Shown here piece after piece: positions 14,254 through 60,815 of a DNA stretch of 64,000 nucleotides. The DNA is from Ephemerocybe angulata (lineage: Eukaryota; Basidiomycota; Agaricomycetes; Agaricales; Psathyrellaceae). A program made the translations under genes and the position numbers. How positions within the stretch are numbered: the stretch's first letter is position 1; the number at the start of each line of letters is the position of its first letter. Below the pieces are notes generated by a model. That model did no database searches. It saw only the letters and a list, made by a program, of their open reading frames with translations, and was not told where the DNA came from. Location: the NCBI GenBank assembly GCA_013368325.1, contig JAACJK010000169.1, forward strand, positions 186,001-250,000. Reading direction: 5' to 3'.

Positions 14254-14570
14254 TTAAATTGTTTCTACCAGCTGAATGACTGTGTCTGCCTGCACATTGA
14301 GTTCCGTCATGGTCGGTTCTGCTTCCATGTCAACCCAGGTGTCGCCGATCTTCACCACAATTTTGTCGACTAGGCCCAGGCGTGAATCTGTTGTGCCACT
14401 TCCAAATCGCTACATAATCGGATGGGCATCACGACGGGCTCCCATGCACGATCCATCGTGTATTCCTGGCCTTTGAAGCTGAATTTGACAAAATGGGGGC
14501 GCGTGTTTCGAGTGCACGGTGCACATAACCGACTGGCGCTCCAGAGTCCATTGTGCATGCGTCCGTATGA
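14254..14570 (-). pseudogene. Decayed ubiquitin/SUMO-like domain
   Basis: The first part reads PHFVKFSFKGQEYTMDRAW, like the beta-1/beta-2 hairpin of a beta-grasp domain. After one probable single-base frame change near 14390 the sequence resumes as KIVVKIGDTWVDMEAEP, then TMTELNVQADTVIQLVETI and a stop at 14254-14256. The closing L-V-x-x-D-T-V-I pattern resembles the last strand of SUMO/ubiquitin-like domains. No upstream exon or leader was found. I read it as a broken relative of the ubiquitin-like sequences at 15.7, 21.4 and 52.2 kb. The similarity is structural in style rather than close in sequence, so the assignment is tentative. Confidence 0.35.
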
Positions 14571-14582
14571 TGCGTCTGACAC

Positions 14583-15715
14583 TTCCCTTGATGCACTCCG
14601 GAAATCTCGTGGTTTCTGATGGTATTGAGATCCAGAGTGTTTAAGTTTAATCCCCCTAGAGCAGTGCGACCACCAAGACTGTATTTACAGAAAGGAACAG
14701 CTGCATAGGTTAAGCGCGCCGACTTCTAGACAAAACGGATACGGTGTTTGAACTTTGCGTGCTGGATATTTTAGGACGCTTGAATGATCATCCAGGACGA
14801 AGTGAGGAGCGGCTCGGAGTCGAGACCATAATGCAGTCACCAGGTGATCGTTCAAGCACGTTCAGGATCGATCCTCGTGGATTTCCTGGGATCCGATCAT
14901 CGAGGAAATGGCGGTAAGGAATAGAACACATGATATGGCTGATGCGAGGTTCTATAGACAAGAGGTCACTTAGGACGGTGTCAAGGCGCGCTATGTAGGG
15001 AGACTCACAGGACAGAGATGACCGGAAAATCTCTTTCAGAGGCTCAAATACGAGTACTTATCTCGATGAACTCAGCGTGGTTACTTGTATCGTCTCTCAA
15101 ACGCTCCGAGTTCCAGGAAGATCTCACAAGCTGCGACGTCATGAACGAGCTTTCCGACCGCCTGGTCCGCCGATGCTGCCGGTACAGCAATCTTAACTGT
15201 TAGAGAACATTGAACGCACCAAGCGGTGCCGCCCTTGACTGCATTTTCCTTTAGCATAGGACTTTGTAGTAGTCGGAAAGCACCTTCGGTGGCATGCCTC
15301 GCAAAGTCACGCCCTCCCATCGTCCACTCAATAAATCATGGTGTATGATAGGTGATAAAATAATACTGACTTTCGCGCCCATTTGCGCCTATATGCGCCT
15401 TTTCTTAGGGTTAGGTGGTCAGGCAGGTGAGGCGACGGGGCGCTCTGATTTGCATGAGCGCGCCGATTAGAAACCAATATTCAAATAACTCCCCCCTCTA
15501 ATTAGACGACCCCTTTGCGACCAAGTAACATAGTACATACTCGACTGCCTGCATTCCACAAGCGGATGCTCGAGGGACGTTTTGGATGGGCATCTACTGG
15601 GGAGAGTACTGAAGAGTAAAAACGGGCTCAAGTTTGCATGGTTCCAAATTGGACAACGCAGAGTAAGTAATTAATAGATGACGCCGACCCTCTAAACAAC
15701 ACGACCGAGCCAACT
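14583..15715. other. Mostly unassigned sequence
   Basis: A minus-strand frame at 15081-15320 (79 codons, with a segment LTVKIAVPAASADQAVG) has a protein-like composition but no recognisable family or leader. A short TTAGGGTTAGG stretch near 15400 is only about two telomere-like units. Nothing else is supported. Confidence 0.4.
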
Positions 15716-16315
15716 CTAGCGCCGGCCCCGGCTCTGTCCTGTTGATTTGAGCACCATATAGAACGCGCCCCCAAGCCTCATATCAAGGTCTCGGAGCGTC
15801 ACGAGATTGCCGTGCGGCAGGATGTGGGTGCCTGGCGCCGGCTTGAGTACAATCTCGTTGACAGCATAGTTCGGCTTCGAGTTGTGTATCTTCTCCTTGA
15901 CATTCTGGACGTTGTCTTTCATCGGGTCACAGACCACCATGAGCTTCCCGCCGTTAGTCTCGTCTATGATGTCGATGTAGATCGGGCCGCGCGCGGCGAG
16001 CTCGTCCTCGTATTCGAGCGCGTCGAGGGCGCGGCGGTGGGCGTCTACGGCGGACTCGAGGAAAGAGCGGAGGGAATGCTCGAAAGGGACTTCGAGTGTG
16101 GTAGATCGGGCGTCGAGCTCGTTGTGGTTGACGTGCTTGAAGGGTAACGACTTAGTGTGAGATTGCGGATTTTGAGGCGGAAGAGGACACATAGAATGTG
16201 CATCAAACATCGTCATAACAAAGTGACCTGCATTTCTGCATTGCGTTGAGGTCACCTCCGTCCAGCCAAGGTCGTTTTGGCGCGCGCCAAACTTGCACCA
16301 ACACCGGCACCCCAT
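15716..16315 (-). CDS. Ubiquitin-like fold protein of the local family
   Basis: The conserved family block (NELDARS, then VPFEHSLRSFLESAVDAHRR, then DELAAR) is followed by a domain whose strands line up with ubiquitin. It opens with IYIDIID and GGKLMVVCDP, continues with a helix NVQNVKEKI (compare TIENVKAKI in ubiquitin), and closes with TLRDLDMRLGGAFYMVLKS (compare the TLSDYNIQKESTLHLVLR region). The protein ends GQSRGRR with no diglycine, so classical conjugation is unlikely. A probable 3' splice site lies before the codon for HVNHNELDARS. The signal-peptide exon seen in the other members was not found upstream, so the N-terminus is uncertain and this copy may be leaderless or mis-started. 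The domain assignment is by eye. Confidence 0.6.
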   Translation of the reverse strand: MGCRCWCKFGARQNDLGWTEVTSTQCRNAGHFVMTMFDAHSMCPLPPQNPQSHTKSLPFKHVNHNELDARSTTLEVPFEHSLRSFLESAVDAHRRALDALEYEDELAARGPIYIDIIDETNGGKLMVVCDPMKDNVQNVKEKIHNSKPNYAVNEIVLKPAPGTHILPHGNLVTLRDLDMRLGGAFYMVLKSTGQSRGRR

Positions 16316-17487
16316 TGTGCCGCTCGCGGAGTTGCGCGGACATTGAATATGCTCACGTGGCTGGCCCGTGCGCTAGGCGCGGCCATATAACCAGTGGACG
16401 CGACGCGTCGCACATAGCTCATTCTTCCGTTCTTCCGTTTTTCCCCCCACTTCCTCCCACCCACTTCTGCGCTGTGCCCTTAAACCTCACGCCTTGTTAC
16501 AAGCTCTCGCAGCTAACCAGCCACCTCGACGCATGCGAGCTCCGCCAGCCCGAGTGAACAATCCCCGCCCAGCACAGTTCGACCTCTACATACAAGTCAG
16601 TGATCTCGCCCAGTGTCAATTGGTAATTTCGACGAAATGGCGGCCCCTACCATTGAGAATGGACGCTATAGGCCAATCGATGACCTCGCCCAGCAAGACC
16701 GCGACCCACAAGCAGCCCGATATCGCTACAGGTCTCATGCTGCCCCCAGCGCACCCGAATCATGAACGCCGGGCGTTCATGGCTTGCTAGTGCAGCTCTT
16801 TGGTCTGGATGTGCCGCGTTCCCCTCCCTCCGGACAGTCTACTACTCCAGTGAGTCTAGGCAACCATCGTACCTCGCCTGTCCACCCATTTATGCATTCG
16901 CACGAGCTTTACTCAGAAGTCGAGTACAGTCTGGCGCCGAGGTCAAGCGTAACGGTGCACTACTTCGGGAGGTGAGGGTTAGCGCCCTTCTGCGCCGCTA
17001 GGTCCGTCTCTCTGCTGGGCTGCGAATAAACCCTTCGCAGTTTCGCCCCTTTCTGCAAGGTAAAAGTCAGCGCCAGCATTCAGAGTTTGATTTGAGACTC
17101 ACAGGTATTGCCTTGAGTAGCCATAACAGCAAGTTATTCTCTCGGAGGATTGCTGTACACAGTTGAAATAGCGTGAAGCCTCCGCCCACAAACAGCTGGG
17201 CCAAAAATGTGAATATTTGGTTGAACACTTGCAGTGGCTAGCGCCCCACTGCGCCGCTAAGCTGCCCTTGTGGGCGCCTATTCACTTCGGCCGACAAAAG
17301 CCTCGTTGCACATATTTGCAACCAACGCCATCGCCTCCCGTACACAGCCGGTTTCCAGGGCCGCACAGCCCCCTCCTCCACATCATTCGCCCTCGGCTCT
17401 TCCTCTTCCCTCCCACCACCACCACAGAAACTATCTTCGGGCAGGACCCCTAGACCCGGGCAGGACCCACACAACAAACTTGTAACA
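16316..17487. other. Gene-poor stretch before duplicated block
   Basis: I see no gene I can defend here. One 42-codon frame is noted separately. The last 70 bp belong to the duplicated block and are the 5' region of the low-complexity protein gene. Confidence 0.4.
16637..16765 (+). CDS. Possible small peptide or first exon (42 residues)
   Basis: An ATG in good context (GACGAAATGG) opens a hydrophilic 42-codon frame starting MAAPTIENGRYRPIDDLA and ending SAPES. Codon use and the lack of low complexity look protein-like. It is preceded by a possible 5' leader intron (GTCAGT near 16596). It may be the first exon of a gene whose remainder is lost or unrecognised. I do not know the family. Confidence 0.25.
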   Translation: MAAPTIENGRYRPIDDLAQQDRDPQAARYRYRSHAAPSAPES

Positions 17488-18124
17488 ATGGCCTCCTCAC
17501 TCCTCAGCCCGCCCAACTCGCCGATGGACCACCGGCACTACATCCCGCGGCGCCCCTCCCCGCTCTCCCTCCCGCCCGTCGGCACCCCCGCGCCCTCCCA
17601 CACCGTCTCCATGGGCTTCGACGCCTCCACCTCCAGCTACCAGCCCTTCTCCCTCAGCGAGTTCGCCGTCGCCACCCCCCGCACGGGCGCACGCATCCCG
17701 CGCTACCCGCTCGAGAAGCAGCGGCGCGCGCTGAAGGAGCTCGAGCAGGAGCAGCAGCGCAAGCGGCAGTCGCAGCAGATGCAGAGGCAGGCGCCGATGG
17801 GGGTGCCAGGGCGGAATGGGAGCTGTGATAGTGTTATGTTGAGCCCGACGACGACGCTGCCGCTGACGCCGAGGAGCGGCGCGAGCTCGGTGTCGAATTA
17901 TTCGCAGGAGGCGCAGCATACGCAGGAGAGGAGGGCGCCGAGCTATCGCAATCCGGCGCTCGCGATGTGTGCGACGGTGTTTGGAAGCTGTTTCGGTGCG
18001 TCGTTCTCTGTTTTTTTCGGGGATGAATGGTTGTTGAATGATATATATAGCCTCGTTGTCTGGACCTGCCAAGCGGCTCGACACGATGAACATGAACATG
18101 CGCACCATCGCCAGCGCTCGCTAG
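17488..18124 (+). CDS. Small proline/glutamine-rich protein, unknown function (copy A)
   Basis: Two exons (17488-17995 and 18051-18124) joined across a 55-bp intron encode 193 residues. The N-terminus is rich in proline and serine (LLSPPNSPMDHRHYIPRRPS). A charged glutamine-rich coiled-coil-like stretch follows (LEKQRRALKELEQEQQRKR), then a SPTTTLPLTPRSG segment with proline-directed phosphorylation-like sites. The C-terminus is GPAKRLDTMNMNMRTIASAR. The intron position and the last 24 residues are preserved in the copy at 48.8 kb, which supports the model. There is no signal peptide or membrane segment, so it is probably a nuclear or cytosolic regulatory-type protein, but no family is recognised. 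Copy B is frameshifted; this copy is intact. Confidence 0.7.
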
Positions 18125-18715
18125 GCACCCTCCTCCCCCTCCCTGGGGTCAACGCGCGAAGGCTGGACAAGCACGATGGGATCGATAGATCGATCGATGG
18201 TAGAGAGGAAGGACAATATGTGGGCGGCGCTGGACGTCGCTCTTTTACACCAGGTAGTGTATCAGTTACGATGGAGGTCTGGGCGTGCTGGTTCGCGTCC
18301 GTATCTCTCTTATATCGTCTATATCTTATCGTTGGAAGATGTCTAGTTTCTGAATCATAGTTTCTTGGGGTGGTCCCCGTTCTCTTACTTTGCTTTGCGT
18401 TGGTGATGGGTGCTGCGTGTTGGTGGGATAGGCTTTTCCTCATCTCGCTCCCTGGGTTTCTCGGGGATACGAGCCGTGGGCTGTGTCGTTACCACCGCCC
18501 AGCTGATACTGTTCAGATCCTCTGGTTATCATCCTTCTCGTGGTCGATGTGCTCTCAGGGATCCAACAAGCGCAGTGATAACCTTGACAGGTCTTCCTCT
18601 CCCAGTGGTCCACAACCTCTACTCGAGCACATCGTCAATCCCATGGAAGATTGGATTTAACAGGGGGCGAGTGAATAATCTGACATACCTTCCTCATTCC
18701 TGCTCATCTAGCTGA

Positions 18716-19343
18716 ACTACGTCCATCGATACGCAGGGCTTCTTTCGATCCTGGCAGGAAATATCCACTCGATTTACTACAGTACGTCGACCAAGATTCG
18801 CGGTCAGTAACCGAGGCTAACTTTCTCCCGTAGTTTACAAGTGGACAAACGCAGGCACGGTCATAGCGAATATATCGCGTCCGAAGTACACGTGGGGTCT
18901 TTTCCTTCTTTTCGCCATGGACCTCCTCCACGTATTCTCGACCGAGATTTGGAGGCGCAAGGCATACAACGTATTCTTCTGGACACACCGTCGGTGTCAT
19001 TATCCTCTTCCCTGCTGTAAGCCTCTATCTTCTGTAGCGGAGATTGACCAATACTCACCACATATACTTCGCAGGCTTGCCTCCATCGACGGGCCCGTAC
19101 GCTTTCGCCTGCGTAGGTCTTTACGGCCTACCGGCTTCTACGGGCATTCAAGTCAAGCATTGCCCCCGCCAAAGCCACTGCGATGGACATAATAGCCTGT
19201 CTCGAGATCCCGACCATCAAGTCTGGCTGGCGCGCAGGCCAGCACGTCCGTCCGCCTGCGCATCCTCTCTGGGGGCATGGGCCTCTTCGGCTGGACGGAA
19301 ACGCACCCGTTCGCCAGCGCCAGCGCCCCTAGGGCGAACGATG
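18716..19343 (+). pseudogene. Ferric reductase fragment
   Basis: The pieces match the central part of a fungal ferric/cupric reductase (FRE/NOX-like flavocytochrome). They are HRYAGLLSILAGNIHSIYY, an intron, then VYKWTNAGTVIANISRPKY, FSTEIWRRKAYNVFFWTHR, a second intron, and after it IPTIKSGWRAGQHVRLRIL and GWTETHPFASASAP, the FAD-binding HPF motif. The intact enzyme would reduce extracellular Fe(III) across the plasma membrane. Here the N-terminal helices and the NADPH-binding half are missing, and a 2-bp loss after WTHR breaks the frame. It occurs only in copy A of the duplicated block; copy B is deleted across this interval. Confidence 0.75.
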
Positions 19344-21426
19344 GACTAGTACTGTGAGGTGCGCCCCAACACGAGTGAGCATGTAAGTACGTACGATCGA
19401 TCGAGCGACCCATTGACACCGTGTCTGACGAACGAACCCTTGATTCTCGCTCTAGGGTACCTACCTACCTACCCCTACCTACCGACATCCAGGCATACTT
19501 TGAACGAATGGCCGACGTCTAATTACCCTCTCGTAGAAGGCGAGCGGCGAGCTGCAGTTCCCTGGCACACGCACATCTGCACATCTGCAGCGCTTCGTTT
19601 ACGTCTCCCCGAGCCTCCGGTCGTCCACCTCTCGGTCGGTCAGTATGCCCGTCCGTCTCGCTTCGTGAGTCATTGACAGTCTTTCTTTCGGCCGCCTTTT
19701 CTTTCTCTCGCGGATCGGGTGGGATATGCATAAGTACCTCTGGGTGTGTGGACGCGCGGGTGAGATCTAGCTACATGAATAGCATACTTACCCGTCTGGT
19801 GGGTGTAGGGTGCTTGGGGGTTGGTTCCCTGCGAGACTCTGGGGAGTTGGTGATGTTGCGGGCGACTGATGCCTCTCTGTCCGTTCCGTCTGTCTGGCGT
19901 TGGCGTTGGGTTTCGGTTTGGGTTATGGGGGTGGGAGGTCCAGGTGTACAGAGCAGTCTGAACTTTCGCCCCTGTGGCCTTCGTATGAATACAAGTCGCG
20001 AGCGAATGATTGAGCTCACGCGGGCTGTGCATGCCATGAGTCGACCGTCAGCATGACGGACGGACGTTGACTAGCCAGTCGTCCAGATCCTTCTCCCTCC
20101 TCGTCTTCATTTATATCATCTCGTCGATATTGCGACTCGCGAGTGTGATATTTCAGGCCCCTCCGCTCCCATAGCATAAGTACGAACGACGTCTGTCTGA
20201 CCTATGTACATGGAAGCTTGAAGGTATGTTATCAGTTCAGTTGTACCTATGTAAGCGAACCATCGATCGCCGCGGTGGCTGGCGATACGTAAAGTACGTG
20301 TGTCTACCGTTAAGCGAAATGATAGATCGACCGACCGTCCACCCCCCCTGTGAGGCGGGAGCACGTAGAACCGCTTCGTCATTCGTCGTTATCGTTAAGT
20401 CACGCTCGGATTCTCGGCGCTTGATGCTAGGCTCTCATTCTCGTAGCGTAAGCCGTACCTCCCCCACACCATCCAGCTCCACCCTTCTTTCTAAGGCGCC
20501 TCGATGCATGATGTACCGTATATTAACTGATGTAGACAGCTTATCTGCTTGCGACGCGGCCGGGAGATCCACATGTGTCTGCGCGGGCCCCGCCGCTCCC
20601 TATGACGAGCAACGCGCGGCGTGCGGTAGCGTACTCGCTACCACTCGCTAGTAGTACCACTCCGAATTTCCTTAATACTGTCCCGGCGGCGATGAAAGCG
20701 GAGATGCAGCTGCTTGTGGATATTAATATCTATGGCGGGGAATACTATGCCGCTCATCGGGTGAACGGAATACTAATTGATGAAGGATACATACCCACCA
20801 GGAATCCGGGCTCGTGTTACTCAGGGTTTTAAGAAACATCCGGACGTAGAGCTTGGGATCCGTATCGTTTGAAGGGAATATTCAGGGGCGTCTCTGTCCT
20901 GAGTGCTGAGCGCCCCTGTGGTCTTAGAATCTATTAGAGCGAAGATCCAGGAGCATGGTATGCGTTCAATACGTCTATGCAAGCCACACAAACCGATCAT
21001 CTCAGTCCGACGTCCGCAGTTCAGCATTTGCTTCTACCTCAGCCAGGTTCAGGGTCATTCTATGTGATATATTCCCTAGCCGACCCTACACGGAGTGGGG
21101 TCGGGCTCGTTTCTGGTGCGTCAGCGAGAAAAAGAGTGCATAACTGAAACGCGCATCCGGGTTCGAAACGCACACTTGGCGACGATGCAGGACGATGGAC
21201 AGGGTGCCGAACTTTATCAGATGTCTCACATATCCCAAGAGGACTGGGGCTTGAGAGTGTGATCAAATTCATTCAGATAGTAGAAGTAGATCTTGATAAT
21301 AGTGGGTTGTATAAACGAAGACCCGGTATACTACTATAACAACGCCTTAAGCGAGGGTGGCCCCGCTTAGCGCCGCTTGGGGGCCTTGGCCGGCTTGCCC
21401 GTCGGAGGATTCCTTGGCGAGGTGTA
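19344..21426. other. Non-coding part of duplicated block
   Basis: There is no supportable gene. The segment from about 20041 is closely matched in copy B (from about 50752). The part at 19.45-20.04 kb is specific to copy A. It contains short simple-sequence tracts such as repeated CTAC near 19460. Confidence 0.5.
20681..20815. repeat. Dispersed repeat, copy 1 of 3
   Basis: A stretch of about 135 bp beginning GGCGATGAAAG and passing through GGAATACTATGCCGCTCATC and GATGAAGGATACATACCCACC recurs at 51432-51560 and, more diverged, at 60393-60528. In all three places it lies a few hundred bases downstream of a minus-strand ubiquitin-like gene or remnant. The translated frame EYYAAHRVKGIL is partly kept, so it may derive from an old exon. 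Confidence 0.7.
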
Positions 21427-21974
21427 TTAGGGAAGAGCGCGGATCGTTTCGTCGATCCAAGGCTCCGTAAGGTGAGCCTCGTAAACCTTTTTAGGGTCTT
21501 CCAGAAGTAGGCCTCCTTTGGTGCGCCATACGTTTGGGTAGATACTCCTCTTGTGCTTTGTTTTGTACAAGTGGTGCTTGCATTCACCCCAGTCCTTGTC
21601 CAGGTCGCAATGGCCTTCCATTCGTTTCCCATCGTGTAGCTTCACGCTCAAAAAGATTTTTCGGTCGTTGCGGGCCGCGAGCTCGTCTCCGCGTTCGTCC
21701 AGGGCCCGGCGGTGCGCGTCGGCTGCCCCTTCGAGGAAGGAGCGGAGCGAGGGCTGGAACGGCACGTCCACGATATGGCGTTCGGAAATGTCGGCGAAGG
21801 GAGCGTCGATGGCACTACGAGCGTCCAACTCGTCGTATTCCTTCAGGGGTTTGTGTTAGCGTCAACCTCAGCACAAATGACCCCGTAGAAACGTACCGCC
21901 TGTGCAAATGCACCCTTGACAAAGAGGGCGGTGCAGAGAGCAAGACCGACGATGGAGCCGACGGGGGACTTCAT
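21427..21974 (-). CDS. Small secreted ubiquitin-like protein (copy A)
   Basis: Two exons (21897-21974 and 21427-21840) join in phase across a 56-bp intron with a GCTAAC branch site, giving 163 residues. Exon 1 is a clean signal peptide (MKSPVGSIVGLALCTALFVK, then GAFAQA). The mature protein begins EYDELDARSAID and has a conserved helical block (DVPFQPSLRSFLEGAADAHR). A domain with beta-grasp character follows: IFLSVKLHDGKRMEGHC, a WGECKHHLY helix start, then LLLEDP in the position of the ubiquitin GKQLEDG turn. Two cysteines eleven residues apart could pair. The frame ends at TAA after ALP. In-frame sequence beyond that stop ends AKAPKRR-stop, echoing the basic tail of the 15.7-kb member, so the stop may be recent. 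Its paralog in copy B shares the leader but not the domain surface. Confidence 0.7.
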
Positions 21975-22158
21975 TGAGGAGTATGTAACGTGTTGATGAA
22001 GGGTAGAGGTGGTGTTTAGGCGATGGTCGATTGGAATAGGGGTGATGAAAGGACGGGCTGCTTCTGTGACGATGATACCTAACCGACTTTGAGATGTGCA
22101 TGGTTTTTATACAAATTTCTTCTCCATCATTCAGGGGCGGCCTGGTATGTTGGGGGAG

Positions 22159-22878
22159 TCTCCGGGTGCAGACTGAAGGACCGAAATATCGCATGAGCCA
22201 TAAGGCGCTTCCGTGCTAGCCGAGGCCCGAGGGTGAGGGTGGGGGGGAGGCTGGGGGAGGGTGTGTGCAGTTTTGTTCAAGCCACCGCGCTAACGCTTGC
22301 GGTATATGAATGTGGCACCGTCGAGATGAGCAAGGCGCGGGATGTGACCTTGGGACGGACGGTGGTTTGGTGCTAGGCGCCTCTCCAACGATGACGTAGG
22401 CCTCAGGCGCCCATCAGGGTCGGCTTTAGTCAACGCGGAGCACCGAGGCTTCGCGGACTTTCGCGGACCGAGACCATCAATCACACCTTGCCTGGCGACT
22501 GCCACCTGGCTCCGAGCAGCTCCTCGACATCTGGCCACTCCAACGGTCGTAGGTTCGTTGTCCAACTATCAGAAAAATAAGACGCTTCGTTCAGGAGAGT
22601 CCACCGCGGACGTTAGCGAGCGGCAGGGTGGTCGTGCCTCTCGAGTCAGAACGGTGGCTTCCGTGAAACGAGAGATCAGCCTTGTGAGAGGTCTGGGTGT
22701 GCGTTTTACCTTCGTTTTACCGTAAGCGCGCGTTGAGGATCGCCGTTGCTTGATGCTTCACATCGACGTAAACCCTGGATACGTAGTTGCCCGTCGCTGG
22801 CCAAGAGGATTCTGGGAGCGCAAGCGCGCTTGCAGTCAGTTGGTCGAAGTCGGACCCCACACGGATGATGTTGATAGG
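22159..22878. other. Intergenic, nothing coding
   Basis: This stretch lies between the end of duplicated block A and the left LTR. The last 130 bp or so resemble the region upstream of the intact MFS gene (about 55.98-56.06 kb), including a shared ACACGGATG stretch, so they belong to a duplicated MFS upstream segment. Confidence 0.45.
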
Positions 22879-23157
22879 TGTTGGGATTCGACGCGCTGCG
22901 TCGTTGGCGCTGCGGCGCTCGATCTAAGTCTGGATATTTGTCGTTGTTTCTGTGTTGTATTTTCTCCGTTACTTTCATGTTCTCTAAGTTCTCTATTGTC
23001 CTTTGGAAGGACTTCCATACTTCTTTACTTCTTATTTATCCTTCATCTTTCCTTCGGAGTATTATTGGAACTATTTACTTGTATTTATACGATGTATAGT
23101 TACTGTGAATTATCATCGGTTTTACCTTTCTCTCAGTTGCTGCGCATAACTGTAACA
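22879..23157 (+). repeat. Left LTR (279 bp)
   Basis: Begins TGTTGGGATTCG and ends CATAACTGTAACA. By eye it is identical to the right LTR. Confidence 0.93.
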
Positions 23158-23173
23158 AGTTATGAGCCCCGCG
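23158..23173 (+). promoter_or_regulatory. Primer-binding site (initiator tRNA-Met half)
   Basis: Sequence AGTTATGAGCCCCGCG directly after the left LTR is complementary to the anticodon loop and stem of initiator tRNA-Met (GGGCTCATAAC). This internal-tRNA priming is known for copia-type elements. Confidence 0.75.
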
Positions 23174-23261
23174 CGGCTCTGACTTCGTTATTTAACTTGT
23201 CTTCATCATCGTAACTCTACTCTGATATCTTGTCTCGCCGCCGCCATCAGCAGCTACAACC

Positions 23262-24095
23262 ATGTCCGATAAACTCTTCAGCACAATCACCACTATCCTC
23301 AACGGCGACAATTACCATGATTGGAAGTTCGCTGTTGGGATGATCCTCAAGCATCGTGGATGCTTTGATGTTGTCACTGGCATCGAAACACAACCATCCA
23401 GCTCCGACGCAACGGGACTAGCAGCCTGGAAGAAGAAGGCCGACGACGGTCTTACCGTAATCGGTCTCACGGTCGATTCCAGCCAGTACACGTTCATCCG
23501 GGCTTCCACAAATGGTGTCGAAGCCTGGCAAGCTCTCAAGGATCAGTACGAGAAGAATACTCGCGCCACTCGCATCTCTCTCAAGCGCCAGTTCTTCGGA
23601 TTCCAGCATGACCCTCACGTACCCATGCAAACCTACATCGCCGGCATAACAGATCTCGCCGCCAAACTTACCGGCATCGGCATCACCCTTTCTGCCGACG
23701 ATATCACCGATGTCCTCATTTTCAATCTCGCCCCTGCCTACTCTAGCCTTGCATCCACCCTCATGGCCACCAAGGGAGATCTCAAGGTCTCCGAGGTCAC
23801 GAGTGCACTCTTGGAGGAGGAGCGGCGTCTAGGAGGAGGAACCTCGGATCGAGATGCCGCCTATGCCCTTTATGGGAAAGGCTCCGCCGGGCCGGGGCGC
23901 TCGGCACCCACTTGTTTTCGTTGCGGGCGGAAGGGGCACCGGTTGAAGGAGTGTTCCGCCCAGAAGCATTTCAACGGAGGCCCCATCACTGCGGAGATGG
24001 AGGAGGAGGCCCGGAGGAAGGCATCTTCCTTTCAGTCCAAGGCCTCTGCATCCCAAGCCGTCGACCTCAACCACGCCATCTCTGTCTCCTATTGA
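23262..24095 (+). CDS. Copia-type Gag polyprotein
   Basis: A 277-residue Gag of the UBN2/Copia class. The N-terminal half contains ILNGDNYHDWKFAVGMILKH and a W-x8-D-x-Y block (AWQALKDQYEKNTRATRISL) typical of the capsid-like domain. A CCHC zinc knuckle CFRCGRKGHRLKEC sits at about residues 218-231 and would bind RNA. The protein should assemble a virus-like particle that packages the element RNA in the cytoplasm. The frame stops after a serine-rich tail, with no pol fusion or frameshift site leading onward. The start ATG at 23262 lies in good context 104 bp inside the LTR. Confidence 0.9.
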   Translation: MSDKLFSTITTILNGDNYHDWKFAVGMILKHRGCFDVVTGIETQPSSSDATGLAAWKKKADDGLTVIGLTVDSSQYTFIRASTNGVEAWQALKDQYEKNTRATRISLKRQFFGFQHDPHVPMQTYIAGITDLAAKLTGIGITLSADDITDVLIFNLAPAYSSLASTLMATKGDLKVSEVTSALLEEERRLGGGTSDRDAAYALYGKGSAGPGRSAPTCFRCGRKGHRLKECSAQKHFNGGPITAEMEEEARRKASSFQSKASASQAVDLNHAISVSY

Positions 24096-24428
24096 TCCCT
24101 TACCCCATCCATCTCTTCAGCTCTCACATCGTCTCACGCACCCTCGTCTCTGTTTGTCGCATATCTCGTGGGTTTCGGGTTTGGAAGGAAAATGGTGGAA
24201 ATACAATTATAGCCAGATCCTCACTGGAGGAAGAGGCTACGGTGAACCCGTGTTTCGGGAATTTTGTTTCTTGTGTTCTTAATTGTGTCTTATCGCTTGT
24301 GGGAGTTGAATCCCTTCCCAAGCTGGATTCCTGTCCGGGTCGAGGTTTTACCTACCCGTTGTTATTGTCTGTGTCAGTTATGGGTCGAGGTGCTGCCTAC
24401 CTGTCTCGCTTGCCGCATCGAGGAGGAG

Positions 24429-24707
24429 TGTTGGGATTCGACGCGCTGCGTCGTTGGCGCTGCGGCGCTCGATCTAAGTCTGGATATTTGTCGTTGTTTC
24501 TGTGTTGTATTTTCTCCGTTACTTTCATGTTCTCTAAGTTCTCTATTGTCCTTTGGAAGGACTTCCATACTTCTTTACTTCTTATTTATCCTTCATCTTT
24601 CCTTCGGAGTATTATTGGAACTATTTACTTGTATTTATACGATGTATAGTTACTGTGAATTATCATCGGTTTTACCTTTCTCTCAGTTGCTGCGCATAAC
24701 TGTAACA
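24429..24707 (+). repeat. Right LTR (279 bp)
   Basis: Identical by eye to the left LTR; followed by the ATAGG target duplication. Confidence 0.93.
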
Positions 24708-24929
24708 ATAGGTACGACTCAGGTCTTCGTACCGGAGACTTGTACAAGCCCCGAACACTGTCCCAAACACCACCTGTCGGCTTCACGGAACGAAGCCGCT
24801 GGGTGACCAAAATATAAAATCTACTTCAACGATAAGCAAGTAAGTACTTTCGAACCCCTTCCATCTCAATCTCATTAATCCATTGACATCTCTTGGCGCA
24901 GAAACCTGATACCTACGGAAGTTCGAAGC

Positions 24930-39984: not shown

Positions 39985-40110
39985 TGCGTTGCGGTAGCTT
40001 GCGTTGATGGCCTTGCGGTATATAACACGCAAGTTACCGCAAATGCCTTGATTGCCGCAAGATTTTCGGTATTTGCGGTGACTTGCGTGAGGTTGCGTGT
40101 TTTGCGTAGG
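39985..40110. repeat. Left subterminal TTGCGGT-type motif array
   Basis: About ten copies of TTGCGGT, TTGCGTT or CCGCAA in both orientations within 125 bp. They are likely transposase contact sites. The matching array is at the other end. Confidence 0.75.
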
Positions 40111-45907: not shown

Positions 45908-46360
45908 ACGCAAACCCACCGCAAATTGAAGGTCACCTACCGCAAATTCGATGCAAGTCAACGCAAATAACCGCAAAGTACATGCAGATCACCGCAAGTC
46001 AACGCAACTTGACGTGTGGGAATCAACTAAGGCTCAACATCAATTCCCTGGTTTGGGGAAGGTGTTGGGTTCCACTGCCCAAAGTCGTTATGTATGAGGT
46101 GGGCCATACCATATATATAAAGGTAGTTCTCATATAGCCCTATTTCATGCTCTAGAGTCTGTGATTTGCCCAACAGTCGCTGGAATTGGACCAACTTTGA
46201 CATATTATCAGGTATTCCATAGGCATCTCCTCGCTTTGTTATTTCTATGCTGGTAGACTGTACTGACATATGCTGAGTTATATAACTATGTACGTATGCA
46301 TCCAGGCCCAAAATTTTCAGTTTTCGTATATTTACCGCAAATTACCGCACCGCAACGCAG
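45908..46360. repeat. Right subterminal ACCGCAA-type motif array
   Basis: ACGCAA, CCGCAA and related motifs recur at 45908-46015 and again at 46333-46360. In inverted orientation they mirror the left end. The interval between (46020-46330) belongs to the element but has no gene. Confidence 0.75.
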
Positions 46361-46374
46361 AATTTTTGGCCACC

Positions 46375-46383
46375 CCTTGCTGA
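46375..46383. repeat. Right 9-bp target-site duplication
   Basis: CCTTGCTGA, identical to 39956-39964. Confidence 0.95.
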
Positions 46384-48369: not shown

Positions 48370-48810
48370 CCAATTATTGGGCGGAGCCTGCCCAGTAAGT
48401 GGCATCGGATGTGAATACCCTGGTCACCGGCACTATGCGAGTCCCACACTTTGTGCGTAACTGCATTTCCTCCTTGTGGTTTTGTGTCTATAGTCATCGT
48501 ACTATGTTATTATTTCTATGAAGCAGCGAACGTACTTTGTCACGTCCCCGCTGGCTGGCATATAAATCACCCATCACTGATGGGATCACAAGCGACTGAA
48601 AAATCGATGGCAACAGAACGACTCCTAAACGGACTCGTAATGAGCGATGATATGTTCTAGTGTCATGGGCGTAAGCTGACTGTACACAGAAATCTACGAT
48701 CACTTGGCGCACCTGAATGATCTCAAAATCGACTGTTTCGCACCACCACAGAAACTATCTTCGGGCAGGACCCCTAGACCACACCCGGGCAGGACCCAAC
48801 TAACACAACA

Positions 48811-49368
48811 ATGGCCTCCGCACTCCTCAGCCCGCCCAACTCGCCGATGGACCACCGGCACTACATCCCGCGGCGCCCCTCCCCGCTCTCCCTCCTGCCC
48901 GTCGGCACCCCCGCACCCTCCCACACCCACACCTCCATGTCCCGCGCTACCCGCTTGAGAAGCAGCGGCGCGCGCTGAAGGAGCTCGAGCAGGAGCAGCA
49001 GCGCAAGCGGCAGTCGCAGCAGATGCAGAGGCAGGCGCCGATGGGGGTGCCAGGGATGAATGGGAGCTGTGATAGTGTGATGTTGAGCCCGACGACGACG
49101 CTGCCGCTGACGCCGAGGAGCGGCGCGAGCTCGGTGTCGAATTATTCGCAGGAGGCGCAGCATACGCAGGAGAGGCGGGTTGCGCCGAGCTATCATAATC
49201 CTGCGGTGGCGATGTGTGCGACGGTGTTTGGGAGCTGTTTTGGTGCGTCGCGATTCTTATCTTTGACTTGGATGTGGACTGACGGTGTGTATAGCCTCGT
49301 TGTCTGGCCCTGCCAAGCGGCTCGACACGATGAACATGAACATGCGCACCATCGCCAGCGCCCGCTAG
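48811..49368 (+). pseudogene. Low-complexity protein gene, copy B, frameshifted
   Basis: This is the counterpart of the gene at 17.5 kb. The first 40 or so codons match (MASALLSPPNSPMDHRHY onward). A deletion of 79 bp then joins the sequence out of frame, giving a premature TGA near 48978. Downstream, the original frame is still open, with the same glutamine-rich stretch, intron (GTGCGT...GTATAG) and terminal GPAKRLDTMNMNMRTIASAR, stopping at 49366-49368. The preserved 3' half hints at a recent break, or at use of an internal start (ATG at 49023). Confidence 0.75.
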
Positions 49369-49885
49369 GCACCCCCTCCCCTTCCCTGGGGCCAACGCGC
49401 GAAGGCTGGACAAGCACGATGCGATCGATGGATCGATTGGCTGGAGAGTCGAAGGACAATGTGGGCGGCGCTGGACGTCGCTCTTTTACACCAGGTAGTG
49501 TATCAGTGACGATGGAGGTCCGGGCGTGCTGGTTCGCGTCCGTATCTCTCTTATATCGTCTATATCCATGTCTAGTCTCTGAATCATAGTTTCTTGGGGT
49601 GGTCCCCGTTCTCTTACTTTGCTTGCGTTGGTGCTGCGTGTTGGTGGGATAGGCTTCCCTCCCTGGGTTTCTCGGGGATACGAGCCGTGGGCTGTGTCGT
49701 TGCCACCGCCCAGCTGATGGTTATCCTGCTCGTGGTCGGATCCAACGAGCGCACTGACAACCTCTTCCTCAAGCTTTAATCGACAGGACCCCCTCCCCAG
49801 CGGTCGGCACCTTCCACGGAGCATTCCTTCAATCGAGCATATCGTCAATCAATCAAATCCATGACTACTAACACCATACTGTTAG

Positions 49886-50752
49886 GTGCACCAACACGAG
49901 TAAGCATGTACCTTTCGATTCTCGCTCTAGCATACCCATCTACCTACCTGCTCGCAGCCTAGTTCACCACCACTACCACCAGATTTAGCGCGTCCCAAAT
50001 CCCATTCCTACGACGCGTCTTCGTGTACTGGCATGCCATGCGGCATCCAAGGGACCTTATGCGTCGGTGTTGGTGTCGTGTCGCTGTCGTGTCCTGTGGT
50101 AGACGGACAGGCGCTTCTGTCAATTAATGAAGTTAAGTAGCCTCCTTCGTATTGCGGACCGTGCGATAGTCAGTCAAGAAAGATCATCGCCGTTGTGTGC
50201 CTATGTAATCAGCGTGAAGGCCATCTACCGGAATACCTGACCTTTCGGACTTAAACCTAAGATATGAGAGCGCCACAAAAGGCTAGATTGGAGCCTTTAG
50301 AGATGTATTCAAGTTGAGCTTTGACCTTGGGTGAACCCGTGGTCAATATATTCAATGTGCAGTCAGGCGTGCCGTGTGCGAGTGTGATGCCTTCCCAATG
50401 GCTTCCTTGTTGCTCTCTGGACTTAAACATGGTATTCTAACGACATAATCAGCTTTACTATTGCATACTACCTATTAATATACAACAACTTCTACAGTCC
50501 CGCACCAATCACCCTCCAGAGAGGGCTCGGAGGAAGCGCTCGGAGGAGGGTGGGCGCCTAAGCAGACCGCCCGCACGTGCGTCCGGGATATGAGCCTAAT
50601 CGGGAAAGTGCCACGGTGCCAAGGCCGGGGCATCCCCGTTGCCGGCCCACCTTACCCTATCATTTCTTGCGCAACCCTACTCTTTTCGCGCAACCCTATC
50701 ATAATTGTTTTTTTTCTCTAACCCTATGACTACTACGACGGTCATCCCCCTC
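49886..50752. other. Copy-B-specific non-coding stretch
   Basis: No gene is seen. Near 50.66-50.72 kb, AACCCTA occurs three times (TGCGCAACCCTACTC, CGCGCAACCCTATCA, CTAACCCTATGAC), too irregular for a telomere repeat. Confidence 0.4.
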
Positions 50753-51431
50753 GATCGTCAGCATGACGGACGTTGACTAGCCAGTCGTCCAGATCCTTCT
50801 CCCTCCTCGTCTTTATCTATGTACCGAGCTCAATGACACTGACCACTGCCTCTTCATCATAGCCTAATCATCTCGTCGGTATTGCGACTCGCGAGTGTGG
50901 TACTATTCCAGGCCCCTCCGCTCGCATAGCATAAGTACGAACGACGTCTGTCTGACCTATGTACATGGAAGCCTGAAGGTATGTTATCAGTTCAGTGGTA
51001 CCTATGTAAGCGAACCATCGATCGCCGCGGTGGCTGGCGATACGTAAAGTACGTGTGTCTACCGTTAAGCGAAATGATAGATCGACCGACCGTCCGCCCC
51101 CCTGTGAGGCGGGAGCACATAGAACCGCTTCGTCATTCGTCGTTATGGTTAAGTCACGCTCGGATTCTCGGCGCTTGATGCTAGGCTCTCATTCTCGTAG
51201 CGTAAGCCGTACCTCCCCCACACCATCCAGCTCCACCCTTCTTTCTAAGGCGCCTCGATGCATGATGTACCGTATATTAACTGATGTAGACAGCTTATCT
51301 GCTTGCGACGCGGCGGGGAGATCCACATGTGTCTGCGCGGGCCCCGCCGCTCCCTATGACGAGCAACGCGCGGCGTGCGGTAGCGTACTCGCTACCACTC
51401 GCTAGTAGTACCACTCTGAATTTCATTAATA

Positions 51432-51560
51432 CTCCCGGCGGCGATGAAAGCGGGGACGCAGCTGCTTGTGAATATCATATCTATGGCGGGGAATACTATG
51501 CCGCTCATCGGGTGAAAGGAATACTATTGATGAAGGATACATACCCACCAGGAATCCGGG
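51432..51560. repeat. Dispersed repeat, copy 2 of 3
   Basis: Close match to 20681-20815. Here the frame EYHIYGGEYYAAHRVKGILL is open. Confidence 0.7.
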
Positions 51561-52203
51561 CTCGTGTTACTCAGGGTTTTAAGAAACATCCGGACGTAGA
51601 GCTTGGGATCCGTATCCAACTTCTGAAGGGAATATTCAGGGGAGTCTCTGTCCTGTGAGTGCTGAGCGCCCCTGTGCTCTTAGAATCTATTAGAGCATGG
51701 TATGCGTTCAATACGGCTATGCAAGCCACACCAACCGATCATCTCAGTCCGACATCCGCAGTTCAGCATCTGGCTTCCACCTCATCCACGTTCAGGGTCA
51801 TTCTAGTGTGTATTGATATATGTGATATATTCCCTAGCCGACCCTACACGGAGTCGGGGTCGGGCTCGTTTCTACTGCGCCAGCGGGAAAAAGAGTGCAT
51901 AACTGAAACGCGCATCCGGGTTCGAAACGCACACCTAGCGACGATGCAGGGCAATGGACAGGGTGGAGTCGAAAGAACTTTATCAGATGTCGCACATACA
52001 TATCCCAAGAGGACTGGAGCTTGGGAGCGCACTTCAAGCAATGTCATTTTGAGGAGGCTAAAATCCACATGAGTGTGATCGCATTCATTCAGATAGTAGA
52101 AGTGCATAGATTCACTTGTATAAACAAAGGCCCGGTATACTACTACAACAACGTCCTGAGCCTTCGCCAGCTTGCCCGTCGGAGCATTCGTTGGCAAGGT
52201 CTA

Positions 52204-52747
52204 TTAGGGGTTGGGGCGGAGCACTTCGTCGACATCGATAGTTTGGCCAATATGAAAGCCACTGTGGCCAACCAGGTCAGGGTCTCTGAGGAATACTCCA
52301 TTGTACTTCCATTGGAATCTGTAGATAGAGCCTTTTGTTCTGTACACCTTTTGCTTGCAGACACCCCAGTCGATGTTCATCGCGCAAAAGCCATTTGCCC
52401 GTTTCCCATCCTGTTTATGCACGTTGACTTCGATTCCTGACTCGCGGGCCGCAAGCTCGTCTCCGCGTTCGTCCAGGGCCCGGCGGTACGCGTCGGCTGC
52501 CCCTTCGAGGAAGGAGCGGAGCGAGGGCTGGAACGGCACGTCCACGATATGGCGTTCGGAAATGTCGGCAAAGGGAACGTCGATGGCACTACGAGCGTCC
52601 AACTCGTCGTATTCCTTCAGGGGTTTGTGTTAGCGTCAACCTCAGCACGAATGACCCGTAGAAACGTACCACCTGTGCAAATGCACCCTTGACAAAGAGG
52701 GCGGTGCAGAGAGCAAGACCGACGATGCCGGCGAGGGGGGACTTCAT
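52204..52747 (-). CDS. Small secreted ubiquitin-like protein (copy B)
   Basis: Two exons (52670-52747 and 52204-52614) give 162 residues. The signal peptide (MKSPLAGIVGLALCTALFVK, then GAFAQV), intron position and the first 80 or so residues are almost identical to the 21.4-kb copy (EYDELDARSAIDVPFADISE, DVPFQPSLRSFLEGAADAYR). After DELAARE the domain diverges: IEVNVHKQDGKRANGFCAMN, a DWGVCKQKVYRTKG helix region, FQWKYNGVFLRDPD in the position of the ubiquitin LIFAGKQLEDG strand and turn, then IDVDEVLRPNP and a stop. The cysteine pair and Trp-Gly are kept in both copies. There is no diglycine end, so ordinary conjugation is unlikely. Secretion is well supported; the ubiquitin-like fold is my reading of the strand pattern. 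Confidence 0.72.
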
Positions 52748-53256
52748 TGAGGAGTATGTAACGTGTGGATGAAGGGTAGAGGTGGTGTTTAGGCGATGGT
52801 CGATTGGAATAGGGGTGATGAAAGGACGGGCTGCTTCTGTGACGATGATACCTAACCGACTTTGAGATGTGCATGGTTTTTATACAAATTTCTTCTCCCT
52901 CATTCAGGGGCGGCCTGGTATGTTGGGGGAGCCATACTCGGGCTGCTCGGCTGAAACCCCCTTGAGGGTGAGAGCGAGGGAAGTGATCTCGGGTTTTGCG
53001 GTAGACGAATTCTAAGAATGGCTGATGGCATTTCTGGTAGAGCTACCGCTCGCCATTATCTACCGCTTCCATTATCGGAGAGTATTGTTTCATCTCAGTT
53101 GAATGTGGTGGAATCTCGCGTTTTCACCGTGTGGGTATGAACCCTTTCGGAAGTAGTTCACAAAATGCGAATGGTTAATGGAGAAGGGCATATTGTAGAG
53201 CGATGAATTACCATAAATACTGTATCGTTCTCACTCATCATAGCTCGCGAGTCGCT

Positions 53257-53704
53257 ATGTATTTCCTTTGGAACTCGATCTTCGGTGTCCTCCTAGCCGC
53301 CTTCAGTTTACTTTCCGCCGTAAATGCGTATAGTGTGCGTAGGAGCATCATCTTCTCCACGCGCCACAGTACCCTCTGACCTTTATCCGCAGGACTACAA
53401 TGAGTATGACACTCGCTCCATTGAAGTTAATTTTATTTTTGGTTACCTTGGGAGGAAATGCGCGATCGCAGTTGATGCTTTCGTCTCGTGTTGGATTAGT
53501 CCACATACATTCCTCCCTCTCGAACGCTTCTCTTTGACTTTTGCGACCCCTTTCCACATGCCTTATTCCCTGAGTCCGTACCCATACCCTTTTGCCATAC
53601 CGATTGTCCCTCGTTCTGCCTCTATTTATTTACCCACTATCGCCAAGTTGTCCATGTTCGACTCCATATACGATAGGCTCTTCCTCGAAACGGATTATCC
53701 CTAG
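53257..53704 (+). CDS. Secreted relative of the ubiquitin-like family, shortened
   Basis: Exon 1 (53257-53334) encodes a signal peptide (MYFLWNSIFGVLLAAFSLLS, then AVNAYS). Exon 2 (53393-53704) begins DYNEYDTRSIE, which lines up with EYDELDARSAI just after the intron of the copies at 21.4 and 52.2 kb; the intron position is the same. Beyond that the 129-residue product no longer resembles the family, with no SLRSFLE block and no beta-grasp pattern. It has a proline/tyrosine-rich stretch instead. It lies on the opposite strand about 500 bp beyond copy B. It may be a truncated member whose tail is fortuitous, or a new secreted peptide built on the shared leader. Confidence 0.45.
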
Positions 53705-56333: not shown

Positions 56334-58387
56334 ATGGATGCAAAAGCCCCCTCCGACTATCGCTCGAAGGTGGACGATTCGGAGAAGAACAGTATTGACA
56401 AGTCGTCAAGTGGAGAGGCCCTCGATGCGCACTACGACCCCAAATTCGTGGAGCAGACATTGTGAGTACCTACCTGCCTCCCCCAGTCCAGTTTCGCGGT
56501 GAACCATTCATCTGTTGTGTATCCGATGCTTATGGGTTTGTTTGAACGTTGCAGGCGCAAAGTCGACTGGCGCATGCTACCCCTCCTCGGCCTTCTCTAC
56601 TCTCTTGCTCTCATCGACCGCACGAATCTAAGCGTTGCGCGTATAGCCGGGATGGATAGATCCTTGGTGAGAGTTCACTCGCATCTCGCCTCGTCCCGAC
56701 TCTCGTCCCATATTTAATGGACGACGCAGGGTCTTACCATCGGCGACCGCTACAGTATCGCTTCCATGATCTACTTCCCACCATACATTCTTTTGTACGT
56801 ATCCCTCACGCTTTCTAAGCCGTGAACGAATCGACTTTCTAATTGAGGTGCAATGTGTAGAGAGATCCCTGGAAATCTTATACTGCAGAAGCTGGGCGCT
56901 CGTGCGTGGTTGACTATCTGCGTCGTGGGGTGGGGAGCAGCACAGATTGGCATGGCTTTTGTGCCGAATTGGAAGCTCCTCAGCCTCACGCGCGTCCTCC
57001 TAGGTGCATTCGAGGTACGTTTTACACACACACCGCATCATCCCCTCTCTGCACCATAGACATGAACTTACCGTCATGAAAACGACAGGCCGGGTTCTTC
57101 CCCGCACTCGCGTTCATCATTACCACATGGTACAAGCGGCACGAAATCCAGAAACGCCTAGCGGCGTTCTACCTAACAGGTATTCTCCTCGGTGGTTTCA
57201 GCGCTCCCTTAGCATACGGGCTACAGCTCATCGCCCCCGCGGGCGGCCTTAAAGGCTGGCAATGGATCTTCCTTGTCGAGGGTCTTCTCACAGTCGTTCT
57301 GGGGCTGGTTACGTGGTTCTTCGTCGCCGACTTCCCGCAGAAGAATAAGTTCTTGACGGAGGAGCAGACGAAGATGATTTTGGATAGGGTGGAGGCGGAT
57401 AGGGGGGATTCGGTGCCTGATGAAGTTACGCCTCGGGTGGTGGGGAAGCATTTGTTGGATCCGTTTTTGTGGTCATTTGGTACGTCGGATTACTCGCGGT
57501 TTCGGTTTTTGGTTTAGTTGTTCCGAAGTGAGCTGATGGTGGGTTTGTTGTGAAATAGGTCTGATGGCTATGAGTGCGACTATGCCTGCGTATGCTATTG
57601 GGTTCTTCGTCGTCATTCTTCTTCAAAGTATGGGATTCTCTATTAGAGATACGCTCCTCCTCACGACGCCGCCCTACGTTGCTGCCGTACGTCAAACTTC
57701 CACTTCCGAGAGCGTACACCATCTCATTTGGTTTGTGGCCAGGCTATTTCGACGTTCTTCTTCGCATGGCTATCGGACAAAACGCGCAAACGTGCTTTAT
57801 GGCTTGCTGTGCAGACGCTGATGACGATCGTCGGGCTTATGGTTACAGGCTATGGGAAGGGTAATGGTGTTCGTTATTTTGGACTGTTCTTGACGAACAT
57901 GGGCGCTTCGGGATCCATTCCTGGGGTTCTGGCATACGTGAGTGCATCTATTCTGTGGGAAGTAGGGCTATAGCTCACACTGTTCCTTGCGGCGCCGTCA
58001 GAACGCGAACAATATTGTCTCGCACAGCAAGGTAAGTCTTATTTAGCGAGGCGTATCTCTGTTCCTATATCTGATGAATGTCTACAGCGCTCTGTGTCCA
58101 CAGCAGTTATCATCGCATTCGGAGGGATTGGAGGAATCTTTGCGACTCTGGTGTACCGCCAGAAAGATTTCCCGGGGTACGTTTATCATCAATCCCTATT
58201 CATGTTCCGTCATGTCTGACTGCTTGTTTACAGGTACATCCCGGGCGTATGGGCGACAATGGCGTGCCAGTTCCTGATGCTTCTTCTCCTCGCAGTCAAC
58301 ACATTTGTTTTCACGCGCCGGAACAAGCTTGCTCGGGAGGGAAAGAGGATTAACGAGGGAACACCAGGATTCTATTATACTATCTAA
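56334..58387 (+). CDS. MFS transporter of the anion:cation symporter (Dal5/Tna1-like) family
   Basis: Ten exons (56334-56461, 56555-56666, 56730-56794, 56861-57014, 57089-57479, 57559-57686, 57743-57937, 58002-58031, 58088-58176, 58234-58387) join in frame to 481 residues, the usual length for this family. Motifs: KVDWRMLPLLGLLYSLALID and RTNLSVARIAG (first helix), EIPGNLILQKLG, GFFPALAFIITTWYKRHE (loop after helix 4), then GWQWIFLVEGLLTVVLG and DFPQKNKFLTEEQ. Later come WLSDKTRKRALWL, NANNIVSHSKRSVSTAVIIA and the end GTPGFYYTI. It probably imports small carboxylated nitrogen or vitamin compounds (allantoate, nicotinate or similar) by proton symport at the plasma membrane; the substrate cannot be told from sequence. 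The gene looks intact. Its promoter and first exon were copied to 25 kb. Confidence 0.9.
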
Positions 58388-58422
58388 TTGTTACATACCA
58401 TCGATATAAGTTTGAACTCATC

Positions 58423-59646: not shown

Positions 59647-60392
59647 AGTCGGAAGCATTCATAGGAGCGTCTTTTTTATAGTTTTGGTTGGGAGATATGG
59701 TTTTAGAGATTCCCGTCTTTAAGCGCCCAAATGCATGTCGTCTCATTCTGATCGCCAGTTCATCCCTTTCCCTTGCCTTCCGTTTGATTGATAAGCCATA
59801 TGGTACTATGCGTGTGTGTCTGGAAAATCGTAGTGGATATTCAGGATGATTGGACTTGCAATTTAGCGAGTTAAGCGCTCCTTACGACGGAGACAATTCC
59901 GGCGCTTACACTACGATCTGGTATTGGAGTTGTCAAGGTCAACTGAAGTGTATTCTGATTGGGCCTGAAGATGTCGTTATCGAGTCGCGCTCAGTCACAA
60001 TCTCACACCTAATGCGTGACAAAGAGTAGGTTGGCGTAACGTACAGAATGATCAATGACTCACGAGTGCAGGGCAGTATGGTGTCAGCCAGGAGAAGGTG
60101 GTGTATGAAGGCCATTTTCGCTGGAAATTCTCTATCACACAGTCGCTGTTCTCATATGCATTCCAGGGATTGAGTTGTGACCCGAGCGCTCGACGAAATA
60201 TTACTGAAATGGTACCGAAGGTGGGCTTCCATCTATTGTAAGTCAGTGAGTCGTGCTGCGCTAACAGAAAAGGATGATTAGGGTCGCACCAATTGGTATG
60301 TGTTGGGGACTTTGTCACACCCACCGTTGGTGTAGGGGCACTTGGTCTGTTCTCGGCGCTCCAGGCGATCGGAGCAAGATTAATACCGTCCC
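59647..60392. other. Intergenic, nothing recognised
   Basis: No supported gene or repeat. Confidence 0.4.
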
Positions 60393-60528
60393 AGGGGCGA
60401 TGAAAGTGGACACAGCTGCTTGCGGATATCATCACTATGTCATAGAATACTATCCCGCGCATTGGGTGAAAGGAATAGTACTAATTGATGAAGGATACGT
60501 ACCCACCATGATATTATCCGGGCTCGCT
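60393..60528. repeat. Dispersed repeat, copy 3 of 3 (diverged)
   Basis: Related to 20681-20815 and 51432-51560: GGCGATGAAAG, AGCTGCTTG, GAATACTATCCCGC and GATGAAGGATACGTACCCACC stretches. Here the frame runs on as IEYYPAHWVKGIVLIDEGY. Confidence 0.65.
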
Positions 60529-60695
60529 GCGAAGCAAGCGCTCAAAGAAAGGTGGCTCGCTGAGAAGCGATTTGAAAAAATGGGATGTATTGACAACGTA
60601 CACCCCACGCTGTATACAACTAGCATAGAGAATAAACTATCTAGGGGAGAGAAAGCTCGAGTCGAACTATAAGACTTTCTTCGCCATTGGACGTC

Positions 60696-60815
60696 TTAGC
60701 GCCTGCCACGCTTCTTTTCCTTCTTCTTTTCCTTGCGGTCTGGAGGCGGGCTGGGGAGACCCATCACACAGAATCCAGTCGCCAAGGTCACAACATTGAA
60801 TATGGCATCCGTCGA
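60696..60815 (-). pseudogene. Possible C-terminal remnant of a ubiquitin-like gene
   Basis: The minus-strand frame reads DAIFNVVTLATGFCVMGLPS and ends in a lysine/arginine tail closing with RGRR-stop at 60696-60698. The last-strand pattern and the RGRR end resemble the 15.7-kb member, and the position relative to the dispersed repeat copies that of copies A and B. Upstream the frame is broken by a stop within about 15 codons. Short and tentative. Confidence 0.3.

Follow-up and report, generated by a model that had tools for sequence, protein, structure and literature searches.

Hypervariable ubiquitin-like domains in a large family of predicted secreted proteins of Ephemerocybe angulata

A 64,000-nucleotide stretch of the mushroom Ephemerocybe angulata (Agaricales, Psathyrellaceae; contig JAACJK010000169.1, positions 186,001 to 250,000; hereafter the window, to which coordinates below refer) contains members of a large gene family. 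The evidence supports a common architecture for its products, in which the first exon is given over to a signal peptide, a conserved block with a LEAR-like end follows, and between one and three ubiquitin-fold domains, none ending in diglycine, complete the protein. The main feature of the family, which a preliminary description of this DNA had missed, is that hypervariation is concentrated in the ubiquitin-like domain. That description had also called the family local, but two genome searches with window proteins place it in a union of at least 73 genomic places on 25 contigs, 20 of them on the window's contig. The figure is a lower bound because such searches score the best candidates only. 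Sixty-nine of the 73 places were read; they comprise 67 distinct genes plus one identical copy each on C189 and C139. C105:543007, C52:41406, C16:607663 and C16:605465 were left unread. An iterated hidden Markov model (HMM) of the block, built on these same sequences, returns 69 rows with a weakest E-value of 1.5e-10, a 70th (E 0.0011, a second open reading frame (ORF) of locus L089) having been dropped. Two of the 69 rows are genes doubled by overlapping loci; they are counted in the block and domain identities, the leader control (69 rows) and the border and tail counts, and were removed for the recount of leaders and cysteines.

Hypervariation of the domain

Over the 52 rows with a full-length block, median pairwise protein identity is 53% for the block and 7.5% for the domain. 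At the DNA level, 75 pairs have a block identity of at least 0.88, and all regions are present in 68 of them, with median identities of 0.67 upstream, 0.89 in the leader, 0.83 in the intron, 0.92 in the block, 0.56 in the domain and 0.59 downstream. The borders of the variable region can be followed in eight pairs with genes in common between them, picked because conserved flanks enclose a divergent domain. Mean identity in these pairs is 0.96-0.98 until about 45 nt before the end of the block, begins to drop on average about 30 nt before that end (0.88 and 0.82 in the last 30 nt), lies at 0.47-0.75 over the first 105 nt and 0.59-0.66 over the last 90 nt of the domain, and is back at 0.82-0.95 from the stop codon onward.

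Silent divergence (dS) is higher in the domain than in leader plus block at p<0.02 in six of these eight pairs and not in the other two; these p-values, like those for the ratio of amino-acid-changing to silent change (dN/dS), are uncorrected, and misalignment of very divergent domains may make the domain value too high. Since selection on amino acids alone should not raise silent change, the excess likely reflects exchange of domains or homogenisation of their surroundings. Six genes have good partners both 5' and 3'; four of them are mosaics whose best partners differ between the two sides. For instance, L048 is nearest to L045 upstream (0.92) and to L043 downstream (0.95). Pooled over eight non-overlapping pairs, dN/dS is 0.25 in the block (confidence interval 0.14-0.41) and 0.93 in the domain (0.71-1.25). 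The pair L078/L079 shows 29.2 amino-acid versus 1.8 silent changes in the domain and none versus 6 in the block, which suggests positive selection in this one pair, although it is not proven overall. In the pairs examined, these data support a picture in which diversity centres on the domain, amino acids change quickly, and copies recombining with one another account for part of the spread.

The deposited proteins that equal or nearly equal window products come from E. angulata. Deposited proteins carry two sets of locus tags, D9611, that of the window's contig, and DFP72DRAFT, taken as a second strain. The domain is 50 aa or longer in 24 of the 25 second-strain proteins fetched; a domain match of at least 0.90 among the genes read exists for six of the 24 and for none of the other 18, the best block matches of those 18 being 0.83-0.98 identical (the domain match of P0034 was calculated over the shorter of the two sequences). 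Every match obtained in protein searches came from E. angulata itself (6 of 6; 25 of 25 among the best 7,999 candidates; 20 of 20 among 27 candidates). Distant relatives may exist, because these searches need shared words of five residues. Coprinellus angulatus is a name that we take to be a synonym of E. angulata, and no paper on the family came up in our literature searches, some of them limited in what they listed. The accessible part of one comparison that includes Coprinellus angulatus (PMC10182949) does not mention 'ubiquitin'.

Leader, conserved block and ubiquitin-like fold

A purpose-made leader finder, whose weights were fixed after the first gene models were seen, allowed a leader exon to be joined in 61 of the 67 distinct genes, and its score reached at least 9 in 59 of 69 family rows as against 0 of 207 control ORFs. 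By this measure the family has an N-terminal signal peptide, with the window copy at 15.7 kb as an exception. A hydrophobic stretch lies near the start of 38 of 39 deposited family proteins; in P0017 the leader sits behind an upstream start of 32 residues. The block, predicted to contain a long helix in the structure model of the 15.7-kb copy, has Arg as its last residue in all 59 rows that reach the profile end, 40 of which read LEAR, a regularity partly built into that selection. Three tandem ubiquitin-like domains follow in L029/P0016, L014 and P0015, and two in P0038, P0014/L021, P0037, P0018 and P0041/L024. Among 65 distinct domains, 35 have no cysteine, 12 have one, 16 two and 2 three or more, so that the label 'disulfide-capable', earlier given to the family in general, suits a minority. 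Tails with at least five Lys or Arg within the last 15 residues occur in 11 of 69 rows.

Some members already bear the UniProt label 'Ubiquitin-like domain-containing'; automatic annotation had therefore already seen the domain. Fold predictions of window copies cover the 15.7-kb and 21.4-kb domains, the 52.2-kb copy not having been folded on its own. A ubiquitin-like order of strand, helix and strand, as first proposed, is predicted well at 15.7 kb and weakly at 21.4 kb, and according to the models the domain as a whole would have the beta-grasp fold of the ubiquitin-like superfamily. The 15.7-kb copy, once singled out as the clearest member, does have the best-predicted fold, but it lacks a recognisable leader.

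Sequence comparison reaches ubiquitin from part of the family. L089 exceeds the cut-off of Pfam ubiquitin (26.6 vs 25.4 bits) and L079 that of Ubiquitin_4 (24.7 vs 22.8 bits). Among PDB sequences, columns 81-158 of profile A1 hit ubiquitin chains, one of them a single-domain chain at E 5e-5, profile A2 gives a weak match only (E 0.005) and profile A3 finds no ubiquitin. The core subfamily c0 (33 sequences) aligns to E. angulata ubiquitin in hhalign with a probability of 90% and an E-value of 1.8e-6; the alignment is weak for c18 (26%) and c1 (18%), and the window subfamilies c5 (0.1%) and c19 (4%) give no match. Subfamilies c1, c2 and c6 are linked to c0 by their profiles at 80-88%, and c18 weakly at 39%. 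None of the window copies attains a Pfam cut-off or a significant match among PDB sequences. The earlier idea of a secreted ubiquitin-fold family in a fungus is thus backed by the leaders, by the Pfam and PDB matches of some relatives and by the predicted structures, with the secretion itself a prediction. It was also correctly noted that no copy ends in diglycine. This holds for all 65 distinct domains, counting encoded ends rather than ends after trimming of tails, and it makes joining of the domains to other proteins, as a modifier of the ubiquitin type, unlikely on sequence grounds.

Gene copies and other features of the window

The three window copies, all on the reverse strand, share the block DARS...SLRSFLE...RRALD...DELAAR as first described, the 52.2-kb copy reading AYRRALD. 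In the 15.7-kb copy the block (HV NHNELDARS...DELAAR; 15989..16135, from translation and block match) is followed by a 90-aa ubiquitin-like domain with a C-terminal GRR (15719..15988); no recognisable leader was found in the range tested, and only weak candidate starts occur within 3 kb upstream. A truncated near relative of this block, 82-84% identical and with no leader found, lies on the same contig (L027:2277-2408, also L040).

The 21.4-kb gene comprises a signal-peptide exon (21897..21974, the start of deposited protein P0010), a 56-nt intron (GTACGT...CTGAAG; 21841..21896), the block (21670..21840, from translation, genome search and block HMM) and a hypervariable ubiquitin-like domain (21430..21669). 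The 52.2-kb gene has a signal-peptide exon (52670..52747, from second-strain protein P0008), a 55-nt intron (52615..52669, from the gene model), a block identified by the same three means (52444..52614) and a hypervariable domain (52207..52443). The leader exon of both genes reads MKSP...GAFAQ, and block and domain are both on the second exon. P0010 is the 21.4-kb product spliced across the 56-nt intron and P0008 the second-strain version of the 52.2-kb gene; both deposited models join the exons in the way given here, in agreement with the claim that two copies carry a signal peptide on a separate first exon. DNA identity between the genes is 94% in the leader exon, 98% in the intron, 97.6% in the block, 62% in the domain and 94% in the 3' flank. 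They lie in segmental duplicates, A (17417..22158, with the 21.4-kb gene) and B (48741..52931, with the 52.2-kb gene), which align in three pieces at 84-91% identity.

Related pieces had also been reported at 14.3, 53.3 and 60.7 kb. The first two are relics, one of a family domain spread over two frames on the reverse strand (14257..14410; tblastn with P0023, E 1.2e-4) and one of a leader exon and second-exon start without the block on the forward strand (53257..53473; tblastn with P0024, E 5.7e-9). The 60.7-kb piece is not a member: it has no match to a family protein at E<=0.01, and what lies beside it is a 3'-flank fragment of the duplicates without a family gene (60380..60526, 80% identity).

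The duplication that copied the family gene also took in a long ORF with no match in Pfam (17417-18507 and 48741-49718, 89-91% identity). Between the duplication halves lie pieces of a retroelement of the long interspersed nuclear element (LINE) type (36732-47653), comprising an ORF with endonuclease and reverse transcriptase, a further reverse transcriptase piece and RNase H. A Copia-type gag with a zinc knuckle (23226-24095) has beside it an exact repeat of 281 nt (22878-23158 and 24428-24708). Two neighbouring long ORFs (8296-9660 and 10542-11915) are diverged copies of each other, with 66-70% DNA identity and no Pfam match. An MFS transporter gene, apparently with several introns, occupies 56350-58390, an extent judged by eye, and one piece of it matched MFS_1. 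When linked enzymes or immunity genes were sought among 20 window ORFs with Pfam at E<=0.001, the five that matched were four retroelement parts and one piece of an MFS transporter.

Possible role and comparison with known systems

We incline to see these products as prepro-proteins in which ubiquitin serves outside the cell as a hypervariable scaffold, used in conflict or recognition, with their secretion, cleavage and function all conjectured from sequence. A prepro-protein is suggested because leader, block and Arg-ended border precede a compact domain. The signal peptide would direct the proteins out of the cell, and an endoprotease would cut after LEAR; a small beta-grasp protein would then be set free, acting as a binding scaffold rather than as a ubiquitin tag. 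Because variation centres on the domain, the partners that the domains meet outside the cell may themselves vary; competing microbes or those of the same species are the likeliest candidates. The family could then serve antagonism or recognition, which hypervariation centred on a predicted exported domain fits. A broader version, tentative and to our minds somewhat less probable than its opposite, regards secreted ubiquitin as a protein-level counterpart of variable receptors, a hypervariable binding scaffold in which an exchangeable ubiquitin-like cassette behind a conserved prepro part is renewed by inter-copy recombination within conserved flanks and used against microbes, or to recognise microbes or individuals.

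Several observations weigh against the scaffold interpretation. No leader was found in 6 of 67 genes, including the 15.7-kb copy and L089, the best Pfam match. LEAR does not have the form of a classical dibasic Kex2 site; of 69 blocks, 51 contain RR at some point and 4 contain KR. In the profile comparison most subfamilies, including both from the window, fail to reach ubiquitin by sequence. DNA downstream of the gene is conserved in some duplicate pairs only (median 0.59, 68 pairs). Pooled domain dN/dS is not above 1, and L078/L079 is the lone pair of eight with an excess of amino-acid change on its own (p 0.011, uncorrected). Finally, the second-strain set is non-random, having been retrieved by similarity, and four first-strain places were left unread.

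The strain-level differences (18 of 24 second-strain domains without a match of at least 0.90 beside blocks 0.83-0.98 identical) and the mosaic genes would also be expected if the secreted domains were ligands marking individuals of the species, with diversity maintained by selection for rare types. Such self/non-self recognition seems improbable to us; the genes are scattered over 25 contigs with no single polymorphic locus, and known fungal allorecognition genes are mostly intracellular. We give similarly little credence to relaxed constraint, in which a domain with little function left drifts and gene conversion keeps the 5' part uniform. The pooled domain dN/dS of 0.93, with an interval that includes 1, agrees with it, as do the relics at 14.3 and 53.3 kb and, in several pairs, a 5' part with little silent divergence, as conversion would give. 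However, the frames are still open, the fold is predictable in the best-modelled copy, the non-coding 3' flank has a higher identity than the coding domain in the eight pairs (chosen for that pattern), and in the L078/L079 domain 29.2 amino-acid changes stand against 1.8 silent ones.

If the leader were not used for export and the basic tails of 11 of 69 rows steered the proteins to the nucleus, they might be intracellular decoys of the ubiquitin pathway, consistent with the ubiquitin similarity of profile A1 and the absence of a leader in the 15.7-kb copy and L089. That 61 of 67 genes have leaders, 58 of 69 rows lack a basic tail and 0 of 65 domains end in GG makes this very unlikely. Marginally less probable still is a developmental role in the fruiting body or the wall, the gene number having grown for dosage. 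The rapid change of coprinoid fruit bodies would suit such proteins, as would the predicted secretion and the restriction to the species as far as searched, but dosage leaves domain-centred hypervariation and strain differences unexplained.

If the scaffold interpretation is true, the family would be a tractable system for the origin of new binding proteins and for fungal fighting or recognition. It would be a large family on the ubiquitin fold, with variation changing abruptly near the domain borders, in a mushroom not known to us as a pathogen. Its members would, in addition, form a natural library of variants of ubiquitin, a scaffold in use by engineers, designed variants of which are among the PDB sequence and structure matches.

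Parasites supply the best-known hypervariable secreted families. Conotoxin-type precursors of cone snails have a conserved signal and pro-region and a hypervariable mature part; likened by general description, they have the same layout of conserved prepro and variable mature parts as the E. angulata proteins, but differ in being disulfide-rich peptides. Crinkler effectors have a conserved N-terminal ubiquitin-like header with an LFLAK motif. They resemble the family in carrying a ubiquitin-like fold within effector proteins, but there it is the conserved header, whereas in E. angulata it is the variable C-terminal part; judged by this domain order, with the ubiquitin-like domain after leader and block, the family is not of the Crinkler class.

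In PMC5705921, BfUbb of Bacteroides fragilis is described as a secreted ubiquitin that acts in antagonism within a species. It shares with the E. angulata proteins a ubiquitin fold, a signal peptide (export being predicted in E. angulata) and the absence of the critical terminal glycine, but it is a single bacterial gene near human ubiquitin, whereas the fungal copies are dozens, divergent, equipped with block and introns, and known from sequence alone. The same text describes ubiquitin-extension effectors of cyst nematodes, named in the preliminary description as the nearest idea, as ubiquitin followed by a cleaved extension of 12 aa. They too are eukaryotic secreted ubiquitin (secretion being predicted in E. 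angulata), but the analogy is loose. Their extension comes after ubiquitin, whereas the E. angulata block precedes a divergent domain, and the window domains are not near-canonical ubiquitin and have no significant match to it, which places the family outside this effector class. HYP effectors of potato cyst nematodes, according to PMC11228951, are secreted parasite proteins with a central hypervariable domain, a likeness to the present family; their variation is allelic, in motifs at single-gene loci, unlike that of a multigene family on a ubiquitin scaffold. A comparable fungal expansion is that of the IGY small secreted proteins of Dikarya, with about 100 secreted paralogues in one species (PMC4367982, abstract). 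These resemble the E. angulata proteins in having a conserved motif at the N terminus, one gene structure throughout and little similarity overall. What sets them apart, going by the abstract, is the IGY motif, a conserved C-terminal motif and their presence in 26 fungi, with no ubiquitin fold named there. The E. angulata family is none of the BfUbb, HYP and IGY systems, and we file it with the hypervariable secreted families built on a shared fold.

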